64,000 bases of DNA from an uncultured Gemmatimonadales bacterium (GTDB lineage Bacteria; Gemmatimonadota; Gemmatimonadetes; JACCXV01; JAHWKZ01). The stretch is from positions 81,124 through 145,123 of the forward strand of contig CAMYLR010000009.1 of the NCBI GenBank assembly GCA_947259315.1. The letters are read 5' to 3'. How positions within the stretch are numbered: position 1 is the first letter of the stretch; every line of letters begins with the position of its first letter. The position numbers were made by a program, and so were the translations under genes. Positions 20,219-23,566 of the stretch are shown in pieces. A model generated the notes under the pieces. The model did no database searches. It saw only the letters and a list, made by a program, of their open reading frames with translations, and was not told the DNA's origin.

Positions 20219-20348
20219 AGTTGCATCGCGACCGGGCTGGGGACAGATTGGTCTTGGGAATGAATAATCCGTCGGTCATTCAAAAGATAGTACGAAGCCG
20301 AACAATCGCCGTGGACCGGCTGGAAGGTGGCGGCAGGGCGGGATATCG

Positions 20349-21335
20349 ATGAGTCGCGCCACAAACGACCGGCCACCGACCGCGGAACAGGCACGAGCCC
20401 GATTGGAGGAGGAGCTCGACCGGGCGTTCGCCGACGATCCTCCCGTGACCAGGGCCGATACTCAGGCCCATGTTTCACGTGAAACATCGGCCGTCGCGGA
20501 ATCCGGCCCGGTTTCCAGCCCCGCAAGAACCGCCCTCGCCAGCGAAACGGCGGGCGAACCCGAAGGGCAGTACAGCACCGCCCGGCTGATCGCGATCGCC
20601 AATCAGAAAGGTGGGGTCGGCAAGACGACGACCGCCGTCAACCTCGCTGCTTCGTTGGCGGTGGCCGAGCGACGAACGCTGCTGGTCGATCTCGACCCCC
20701 AGGGCAACGCCTCGAGCGGTCTGGGCATCCACAAGGAGACGCTCGGCTCGAGCGTCTACGACGTGATCGTCAACGACGCGGCGATGCGCGATGTGGTGGT
20801 TCAGACCTCGATGGAGTATCTCGATGTGGCCCCGGCCACGGTCGATCTGTTCGGGGCCGAGGTCGAGTTGGTCAGCGCCATCGGGCGCGAGCATCGGCTC
20901 AGAGATGCGCTGGCCGATTTACGGGGTGATTACGAGTTCATCTTCGTCGATTGTCCGCCATCCCTCGGCCTGCTGACAGTGAATGCGCTGACGGCGGTCG
21001 ATTCGGTGCTGATCCCGATCCAGTGCGAGTACTATGCGCTGGAAGGGCTGTCGCAACTGTTGGGCACGATCCGGATCGTTCAGAAGCGGCTCAACCGGGA
21101 TCTCACGATCGAGGGCGTCCTGTTGACGATGTACGATTCGCGGTTGAATCTCGCGCGGCAAGTGCAAGACGAAGCGGTTGAGTACTTCGGTAAAAGCGTG
21201 TACGATACAGTCATCCCTCGTAACGTGCGGCTGTCGGAGGCACCAAGCTTCGGCAAGCCGGTGATTCTCTATGACATTCTGTCGGTCGGCGCGGAGAGTT
21301 ACATGAAGCTCGCAGAGGAGTTGATCGCGCGGTGA
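20349..21335 (+). CDS. parA: Chromosome-partitioning ATPase ParA with N-terminal extension
   Basis: 328 residues from ATG 20349. The deviant Walker A motif QKGGVGKTTT starts at residue 87, so there is an extension of about 75 residues rich in Ala, Pro and acidic residues that most ParA/Soj proteins lack. The rest is standard: LLVDLDPQGNASSGLG, then FIFVDCPPSLGLLTVNAL. Residues 41-47 (HVSRETS) are encoded by an intact parS site. If translation really starts later, parS would be in the leader instead. It moves ParB-parS complexes over the nucleoid. It overlaps parB by 4 bases. Confidence 0.95.
   Translation: MSRATNDRPPTAEQARARLEEELDRAFADDPPVTRADTQAHVSRETSAVAESGPVSSPARTALASETAGEPEGQYSTARLIAIANQKGGVGKTTTAVNLAASLAVAERRTLLVDLDPQGNASSGLGIHKETLGSSVYDVIVNDAAMRDVVVQTSMEYLDVAPATVDLFGAEVELVSAIGREHRLRDALADLRGDYEFIFVDCPPSLGLLTVNALTAVDSVLIPIQCEYYALEGLSQLLGTIRIVQKRLNRDLTIEGVLLTMYDSRLNLARQVQDEAVEYFGKSVYDTVIPRNVRLSEAPSFGKPVILYDILSVGAESYMKLAEELIAR
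20471..20486. promoter_or_regulatory. parS centromere site inside parA
   Basis: TGTTTCACGTGAAACA, a perfect 16-base palindrome and exact match to the consensus parS bound by chromosomal ParB proteins. It lies within the 5' part of parA, in frame as HVSRET. It would nucleate the ParB clamp at its own operon, close to the replication origin. Confidence 0.95.
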
Positions 21336-22213
21336 CCCAACAGCGACGACTGGGGAAAGGGCTCGGGGCTCTGCTGGGGGAATCAGCGCTAGAGGCGACG
21401 CGCGCCGAACAGCTTGGCGGGACGCTGGAAGTCGACGTCGGCCGCATCGTGCCGAACCGGTACCAGCCGCGGCAGACGTTCGATGACAGCTCGATCGCGG
21501 AGCTAGCGGAGTCGATCGGCCAAAAGGGTGTGCTCCAGCCGCTGATCGTCACTCCACGCGCCGAGGGGGACTACATGCTGGTGTCGGGAGAGCGGCGCCT
21601 ACGGGCCGCGCGGCAGGCCGGTCTCTCGGCGGTGCCGGTGCTCGTTCGCGACGTTGGCGATCGAGAGCTGCTGGAGATCGCGCTGATCGAGAATCTCCAG
21701 CGCGAGGATCTCGACGCTATAGAGGAAGCGGTTGGTTATCAGCAGCTGATGGAAGGGTTCGGCTTGACCCAGGCCGAGGTCGGCGCACAGGTCGGCCGCA
21801 GCCGGCCGGCGGTGACGAACGCTCTCCGACTGCTCGAGCTGCCGGACGCGGTGCAGTCGATGATCAGGGACGGCGCGCTGTCGGCGGGACATGGTCGGGC
21901 CCTGCTCGGGATAAAGGACCCCCGCCGGATCACCCCGCTTGCGCGAAAGGCCGCGAAGGGCGGGTATTCGGTCCGGCAGGTCGAACGTCTCGTCAAGCGC
22001 GAGGCCAGGAGCAAGAAGAAAGCGCCAGAGAAGCCGGCGGCAACCACCGACGACGCTGAACGCGCGCGGCTCGAGGAGGAGCTTCAGCGACAACTCGGAA
22101 CGCGAGTCAAGATCCACTTGGAGAAGACGGGCAAGGGGCGCATCGAGGTCGCGTTCTATTCGCTTGAGGATCTGGAGCGCTTGGCGGAGAGGCTGGGGGC
22201 CGGGTCAGCATGA
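21332..22213 (+). CDS. parB: Chromosome-partitioning protein ParB
   Basis: 293 residues from GTG 21332. The N-terminal CTP-binding domain has the GERRLRAARQAG box and LIENLQREDLDAIEEA. The central helix-turn-helix domain (LTQAEVGAQVGRSRPAVTNAL) reads parS, and a basic linker leads to a C-terminal dimerisation segment. It loads at parS as a CTP-dependent sliding clamp and stimulates ParA. It overlaps parA upstream and the M23 gene downstream by 4 bases, so the three are likely made together. Confidence 0.97.
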   Translation: MTQQRRLGKGLGALLGESALEATRAEQLGGTLEVDVGRIVPNRYQPRQTFDDSSIAELAESIGQKGVLQPLIVTPRAEGDYMLVSGERRLRAARQAGLSAVPVLVRDVGDRELLEIALIENLQREDLDAIEEAVGYQQLMEGFGLTQAEVGAQVGRSRPAVTNALRLLELPDAVQSMIRDGALSAGHGRALLGIKDPRRITPLARKAAKGGYSVRQVERLVKREARSKKKAPEKPAATTDDAERARLEEELQRQLGTRVKIHLEKTGKGRIEVAFYSLEDLERLAERLGAGSA

Positions 22214-22926
22214 GAGACAAGCACCTGACGCTGCTCGTGGTCCCACACGACGAACACAACGTGCGGCAGATCCGTTTGTCGTACCGCCGGCTACAGGTAC
22301 TGGCCGCCGTGCTCGGGGTGGTGCTGGTGACGGTCCTCGTGGCGATCGCATCTTACGGGCGGGTGGCCGCACGCGCCGGTCGTGCCGTCGCGCTCGAACA
22401 GGAGAACGCTCGCTTGGAGGCAGAGAACGCAAAAGTAAACGCGATCGCGATGAACCTGGCGCGGACCGAACAAGCCTACGAACAGATCCGCTCGATGGCG
22501 GGTTTGACCCCCGATGTGTTGCCGGTCGAAGACGTGCAGCAGGCTGATGCCGAGCCACGATCGCCAAGGGGATGGCCGTTGACGACGAAGGGCTTTGTCA
22601 CCGCGCCGTTCGACAGCGACGAGGGCCATTCGGGCGTGGACATCGCCGTGCCCAGCAACACCCCGGTGGTAGCGACCGCCGGGGGACAGGTCAGAGAGAG
22701 CGGCTCGGACGCGGTTCTGGGAGAGTATGTCGTGATCGATCACGACGACGGCTACGAGACGATGTACGCGCACAATGCGAACCGGCTGGTTAGTACCGGG
22801 GCCGTGGTCGAGCGCGGCCAGACGATCGCTTACAGTGGGAATACCGGCCGTTCGACGGCGCCGCACCTCCACTACGAGGTCCGCAGACGGGGCGAGCCGA
22901 TCGACCCGGCCCCGTACATGCGTTGA
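22210..22926 (+). CDS. M23 (LytM) peptidoglycan endopeptidase, bactofilin-operon type
   Basis: 238 residues from ATG 22210. A short cytoplasmic N-terminus (residues 1-30) contains TLLVVPHDEHNVRQIRLS. A membrane helix (about 31-50), a coiled coil (about 58-95, EQENARLEAENAKV) and a periplasmic LytM domain follow. Zinc and catalytic residues are intact: HSGVDIAV and PHLHYEV. It should cleave peptide cross-links. The position between parB and bactofilin, and a cytoplasmic motif like that seen in bactofilin-partner M23 proteins, suggest that the cytoskeleton recruits it. The same motif recurs in the M23 protein at 50011. Confidence 0.92.
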   Translation: MRDKHLTLLVVPHDEHNVRQIRLSYRRLQVLAAVLGVVLVTVLVAIASYGRVAARAGRAVALEQENARLEAENAKVNAIAMNLARTEQAYEQIRSMAGLTPDVLPVEDVQQADAEPRSPRGWPLTTKGFVTAPFDSDEGHSGVDIAVPSNTPVVATAGGQVRESGSDAVLGEYVVIDHDDGYETMYAHNANRLVSTGAVVERGQTIAYSGNTGRSTAPHLHYEVRRRGEPIDPAPYMR

Positions 22927-22974
22927 CTGGCCCACTTCGGAGACGAATCCATTTCCCAGTAGGAGGGAAAGAGC

Positions 22975-23430
22975 ATGAGCAAGAGAGAGACGGTGAACGG
23001 TGGCCTCAATTCGTTGCTCGGGACAGGTGTTGACTGCCAGGGCACGGCTCGCGTCGAAGGGACATTGCGCCTCGACGGAACTTTCCGAGGCAACCTCGAG
23101 GTGGGGGACACGTTGGTGATCGGTCAGACCGGTGCGCTGGAGGGCAAGGCGTATGGACGCGAGGTCATTATCGCCGGCCGCTTCAAAGGTGAGGTGATGG
23201 GGACCGAGCAGGTGGAGCTTCAAAAAGGGGCTCGTCTCGAGGGCGACGTGATCACGCGGTCCTTTGTCATCGAACCCGGAGTCTATTTCGCCGGCAACTG
23301 CAAGATGGAGTTCACCGAGGCCGATGAGGCCAAGCTCAAAGTCGGACCGAAAAGCACCAAGCCAGCCTCGAAACCGAAGAAATCGGACGACGAGGGCGAC
23401 CAGGCGGTGCTCCGTTCGCTGTCCAAATGA
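22975..23430 (+). CDS. Bactofilin (polymer-forming cytoskeletal protein)
   Basis: 151 residues from ATG 22975, with AGGAGG 9 bases upstream. The bactofilin beta-helix core runs from GTGVDCQGTARVEGTLRLDG to about residue 115, with the repeating pattern of short strands and glycines (EVGDTLVIGQTGALEGKAYG). A charged, lysine-rich C-terminal tail (KSTKPASKPKKSDD) is typical of the unstructured ends. Bactofilins form membrane-associated filaments that place cell-wall enzymes and, in Myxococcus, organise ParABS. The gene ends the parA-parB-M23 run and faces atpC convergently. Confidence 0.94.
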   Translation: MSKRETVNGGLNSLLGTGVDCQGTARVEGTLRLDGTFRGNLEVGDTLVIGQTGALEGKAYGREVIIAGRFKGEVMGTEQVELQKGARLEGDVITRSFVIEPGVYFAGNCKMEFTEADEAKLKVGPKSTKPASKPKKSDDEGDQAVLRSLSK

Positions 23431-23547: not shown

Positions 23548-23566
23548 TTTTCCACAGTTATCCACA
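23548..23566 (+). promoter_or_regulatory. Tandem DnaA-box pair
   Basis: TTTTCCACA (23548-23556, 8 of 9) and TTATCCACA (23558-23566, perfect) stand in direct repeat one base apart in an intergenic region. A third near match (GTATGCACA, minus strand, 23461-23453) lies in the same gap. They could belong to the replication origin or to a DnaA-titrating site. They are about 6 kb from dnaA and 3 kb from parS. Confidence 0.6.

Follow-up and report, generated by a model that had tools for sequence, protein, structure and literature searches.

A conserved parA-parB-M23-bactofilin operon beside the replication origin in Gemmatimonadota and two further phyla, with a peptidase-less form in Gemmatimonadaceae

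The window, a 64,000-nucleotide stretch of DNA from an uncultured Gemmatimonadales bacterium (contig CAMYLR010000009.1), carries four consecutive genes on the plus strand in the order parA, parB, M23 peptidase and bactofilin, with exactly the coordinates and directions given in the first-pass annotation. The parA gene (20349–21335) encodes 328 amino acids, with an N-terminal extension of about 75 residues ahead of the ATPase fold (Pfam AAA_31, 1.9e-64), and overlaps by four bases (GTGA) with parB (21332–22213; 293 amino acids; GTG start; Pfam ParB_N, HTH_ParB and ParB_C). The latter shares four bases (ATGA) with the gene of an LmdC-like M23 (LytM) peptidase (22210–22926; 238 amino acids; Pfam Peptidase_M23, 1e-33). 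Both overlaps had been read at first pass, as had the strong ribosome binding site (AGGAGGG) of the bactofilin gene, which follows 48 bases 3′ of the M23 gene (22975–23430; 151 amino acids; Pfam Bactofilin, PF04519, 2e-24) and whose core domain scores 86 bits against a cut-off of 27.9. The Pfam matches of all four genes lie well over their cut-offs, and no terminator-like sites were found on the plus strand within the four genes. The order of the genes is not due to chance, being repeated across families of Gemmatimonadota and in two further phyla. A search of viral contigs for relatives of the window bactofilin returned none.

The dnaA region to the left of the operon and the switch in GC skew place the operon beside the origin, in agreement with the first-pass annotation. 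The genes recF, dnaN and dnaA lie on the opposite strand, 2.8–6.8 kb to the left of the operon, yidC, yidD and rnpA lie to its left on the same strand, and the skew changes sign at about 16–18 kb of the window. A perfect 16-mer parS, TGTTTCACGTGAAACA (20471–20486), is the only match found anywhere in the assembly, the window included, when up to two mismatches are allowed. The locus has the components of a chromosomal ParABS system, namely a ParA ATPase, a ParB with N-terminal, HTH and C-terminal domains, and a parS near oriC. The parS site lies inside the parA reading frame, and the N-terminal HVSRET motif of ParA is its translation. In the window's family, the ParA extension consists of a parA frame that extends across parS; a role in binding bactofilin, which had been suggested for it, is unsupported, and the extension was set aside as a bactofilin-binding domain. 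The same placement of parS is seen in genome G176 and, with one mismatch, in L084, and in most other families parS is found just upstream of parA. The yidC gene almost adjoins parA in the window (20219–20348), in G176 and in L084, and lies about 2–5 kb away in other families (L077, L078, L081).

Two DnaA boxes (TTTTCCACA g TTATCCACA; 23548–23566, plus strand) are associated with the operon, in the gap between bactofilin and atpC. Across 114 Gemmatimonadota par loci, 41 DnaA boxes occur within 200 bp past the bactofilin stop, against 1.2 expected from shuffles (maximum 5), and the exact box pair is kept in L084 (6955–6973), which has no bactofilin at this site. To judge from these sequences, the boxes may give the origin region a second element to which DnaA binds. 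An origin in the gap itself was considered because of them and was set aside, given that the skew switches at 16–18 kb and that both flanking operons would face replication head-on.

The M23 protein was modelled with AlphaFold2 from 52 orthologues (mean pLDDT 92). The model has two strands (residues 5–10 and 19–24), a continuous helix (residues 25–97) and an M23 fold (residues 129–231), each at a pLDDT of 86–98, with the short linker excepted. The strands form a predicted cytoplasmic β-hairpin (22222–22281, plus strand), the presumed bactofilin-binding element, the segment of which is conserved in the peptidase-less forms described below; an Arg at the start of its second strand is conserved in 87 of 109 full-length M23 proteins. 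The helix (22282–22500, plus strand) comprises a membrane span and then a coiled coil. The M23 domain (22624–22908, plus strand) retains the metal and catalytic residues H140, D144, H188, H219 and H221, as do 106 of the 109 full-length proteins. The closest solved structures are the Csd1–Csd2 pair, which is the best match, and ShyA. A short N-terminus with a β-hairpin followed by one membrane helix (a topology read from the sequence), together with the intact M23 domain and the adjoining bactofilin gene, gives the protein the features of LmdC.

In Rhodospirillum rubrum, the cytoplasmic hairpin of LmdC binds bactofilin, and changes in the hairpin abolish recruitment by bactofilin (PMC10945521). 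The BacA–LmdC systems of Hyphomonas neptunium and R. rubrum resemble the window in that a bactofilin adjoins a bitopic M23 protein with a cytoplasmic β-hairpin, a membrane helix and a periplasmic peptidase (PMC10945521). However, they are two-gene units without parAB, whereas here the pair ends a par operon at the origin; in one family the hairpin part is retained without the peptidase. Neighbouring bactofilin and M23 genes are known from 226 species in many phyla (PMC10945521). The CcmA–Csd1/Csd2 system of Helicobacter pylori likewise combines a bactofilin with M23 proteins, including the best structural match, although there it is a helical-shape complex. To our knowledge, no par genes belong to the CcmA–Csd1/Csd2 operon of H. 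pylori. In Helicobacter, Csd1–Csd2 works with the bactofilin CcmA (PMC9507126).

The bactofilin itself begins with MSKRETVNGG and lacks the canonical membrane-targeting start, a hydrophobic residue near position 2 together with lysines; BacA has an MF-type start of this kind (MFSKQAKS type; PMC12448750). As a rough pattern, the MF-type start is present in most bactofilins of families f2 and f3 and absent from f1, f4, f5, f8, f9 and f10. As the usual N-terminal signal for membrane targeting is missing from bactofilins of the window type, the M23 protein probably helps to keep bactofilin at the membrane in the families without an MF-type start.

To assess conservation, 200 Gemmatimonadota genomes were searched for bactofilin and ParB, and about 180 par loci were fetched and scored with profiles built from the same loci. 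Outside family f3, the order parA-parB-M23-bactofilin is found in 100 of 114 genomes; five others end at contig breaks, which leaves 100 of 109 assessable genomes, and in the same proportion (100/109) M23 adjoins bactofilin. The order that had been noted in a single genome is therefore clearly kept in relatives. It extends to another class, with the quartet in all five genomes of family f10, one of which (L083) has a convergent atp operon downstream, as in the window. Start codons, all of them predictions, allow a four-base parB/M23 overlap in 80 of 130 genomes and a one-base overlap in nine more. The M23 protein of L084 ('Gemmatimonadetes bacterium') is 54% identical to that of the window, and some genomes have M23 without an adjacent bactofilin or the pair apart from parAB (L084, G098, G099, G190). 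In the close relative L084 (6729–7175), parA-parB-M23 is present and no bactofilin lies between M23 and atpC. Conservation also extends to much of the surrounding origin region.

When named genomes were scanned with the M23 protein of the window, the quartet appeared in Zixibacteria and in the Chitinivibrionales/Chitinispirillia of Fibrobacterota, and both phyla were then sampled, with phylum labels following the names of the centre genomes. The quartet is present in 47 of 56 Zixibacteria (30/30 best matches and 17/26 other assessable genomes) and in 41 of 41 Fibrobacterota (29/29 assessable best matches and 12/12 others). In Bacteroidota, 29 loci were examined, and neither M23 nor bactofilin lies within 1.5 kb of parB in any of them. 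The partial combinations also occur: parA-parB-bactofilin without M23, as in Myxococcus, in a Bdellovibrionota locus and in Sulfidibacter, and M23-bactofilin without nearby parAB in Goldbacteria, a spirochaete, FCPU426, Wenzhouxiangella and others. The window does not have a par operon of the Myxococcus type, in that the M23 gene separates parB from bactofilin; direct adjacency of parB and bactofilin was seen only in five Gemmatimonadaceae and in L201 and L204.

Family f3 departs from this order. It corresponds to Gemmatimonadaceae: over the columns used, G181 has the same ParB as a genome of that name. Its 65 par loci include three with a full-length M23 gene, five with bactofilin directly after parB, and 18 (plus two at contig ends) with a gene for the hairpin segment, membrane helix and coiled coil without a peptidase domain. 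Neither gene is close by in the remaining 37, 18 of which have less than 1.8 kb visible downstream. The metal site is broken in two of the three full-length proteins: in G032, T, E and G replace H, D and H, and in G198, S and D replace the first and third metal ligands. The shortened genes comprise 126–254 codons and belong to no Pfam or NCBIfam family (one sub-threshold Pfam match). Their products share 13 invariant columns, most of them in the hairpin segment and the coiled coil (for example, G-L-x-H in the hairpin segment), and dN/dS in ten pairs is 0.08–0.29, which shows purifying selection on the shortened genes. A missed annotation, a frameshift or a pseudogene was rejected on gap length, genome number and dN/dS.

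On the ParB tree, the shortened genes fall into two separate groups, one of them beside the two degenerate full-length genes and the second placed with moderate support (SH-aLRT 81–91), so that two or more separate losses of the peptidase domain are probable. AlphaFold predicts the helix of the peptidase-less protein confidently (16 sequences) and resolves the hairpin poorly (pLDDT about 54–83), and the hairpin in this form is therefore assigned by sequence similarity. Given the purifying selection on a gene that has lost its peptidase domain, it is, as far as the sequences tell, the hairpin-membrane part that selection retains beside bactofilin, and not the cutter. In Gemmatimonadaceae genomes without the pair at the par locus, ten bactofilin loci have an M23 gene next door (L009, L014, L016, L033, L380, L383, L384, L385, L388, L400). 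In L009, L014, L016 and L033, M23 lies beside at least two bactofilin genes in one cluster apart from parAB. Since the pair is found apart from parAB in other genomes, M23 and bactofilin form the tighter bond, and the link to parAB is looser.

The closest known par operon is parA-parB-bacM of Myxococcus xanthus, where a bactofilin gene near the origin is likewise transcribed together with parAB and comes immediately after it, although no M23 gene lies between parB and bactofilin there (PMC3899335, PMC5703909). The first-pass annotation had drawn on Myxococcus as a parallel. That bactofilins organise ParABS holds for BacNOP, which are encoded elsewhere in the M. xanthus genome (PMC5703909). BacM, the bactofilin of the par operon, is dispensable for ParA localisation and segregation and acts in shape (PMC3899335, PMC5703909), and the parallel is weaker for it.

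We consider it likely that the quartet is an operon of long standing at the origin, through which ParABS is co-expressed with a second module, an LmdC-type pair for wall remodelling, in which bactofilin captures the M23 hairpin and so places the cuts. By analogy with LmdC, bactofilin polymers would form on the inner side of the membrane and capture the M23 protein through its cytoplasmic β-hairpin, and the membrane helix and coiled coil would bring the endopeptidase domain to the periplasm; cuts would thereby fall along the bactofilin scaffold. The M23 protein would probably also fix this scaffold to the membrane. Translational coupling through the ATGA overlaps, together with proximity to the origin, may make protein amounts follow ParB and replication. 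The earlier proposal of a unit that links the position of the origin to the cutting of peptidoglycan is not supported as stated, for Gemmatimonadaceae lost the cutter and kept the hairpin-membrane part and bactofilin behind parB, and elsewhere the M23-bactofilin pair lies apart from parAB. Against the two-module explanation itself, it must be noted that a conserved order near the origin can last without functional coupling.

The genes may even be neighbours only, a possibility that we place somewhat short of an even chance: M23-bactofilin would be a shape module in a stable origin neighbourhood, and the shared operon would provide expression matched to growth rate without a link to segregation. 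BacM, dispensable for segregation within a par operon, fits this well, as do the M23-bactofilin pairs apart from parAB in several phyla and at the ten Gemmatimonadaceae loci and the general conservation of the neighbourhood. However, the exact order kept in three phyla with frequent four-base overlaps, and the peptidase-less form retained behind parB, suggest more than drift. Direct coupling, as the first-pass annotation had envisaged, appears unlikely. ParA or ParB would here bind the bactofilin-M23 scaffold, anchoring the segregated origin and marking the local wall for remodelling, and the conserved order, the translational coupling and the role of BacNOP in M. xanthus (PMC5703909) would all agree with this. 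Yet the analogous operon bactofilin of M. xanthus is uninvolved, the peptidase is dispensable in Gemmatimonadaceae, and no conserved ParA extension was found as a possible point of contact; that either Par protein physically touches bactofilin is rather doubtful. It is more unlikely still that the quartet represents an ancestral FCB unit for origin anchoring and wall remodelling, whose scaffold tethers the ParB-bound origin and in which the hairpin protein of Gemmatimonadaceae is a peptidase-free adaptor that serves tethering only; if true, this adaptor would represent a family of small membrane proteins that is new and matches nothing in Pfam or NCBIfam. Two full-length relatives without metal ligands and the complete loss of the gene in many relatives might suggest that the peptidase-less genes are remnants in decay or artefacts of annotation. 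This is highly improbable in view of the dN/dS of the ten pairs, the 13 invariant columns and the presence of the shortened gene in 18–20 genomes, several genera and two parts of the ParB tree.

The individual parts, the M23-bactofilin pair and the parAB-bactofilin pair are already known. In open-licence papers, we found no description of the four-gene order, of its occurrence in Gemmatimonadota, Zixibacteria and Fibrobacterota, or of the peptidase-less form, although the source tables of PMC10945521 may list some of the loci as pairs. An operon shared by three phyla makes it testable, far outside Myxococcus, whether the tie of bactofilins to chromosome segregation is general or confined to that genus. 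Gemmatimonadaceae constitute a natural experiment, having lost the peptidase and retained the part predicted to contact bactofilin.
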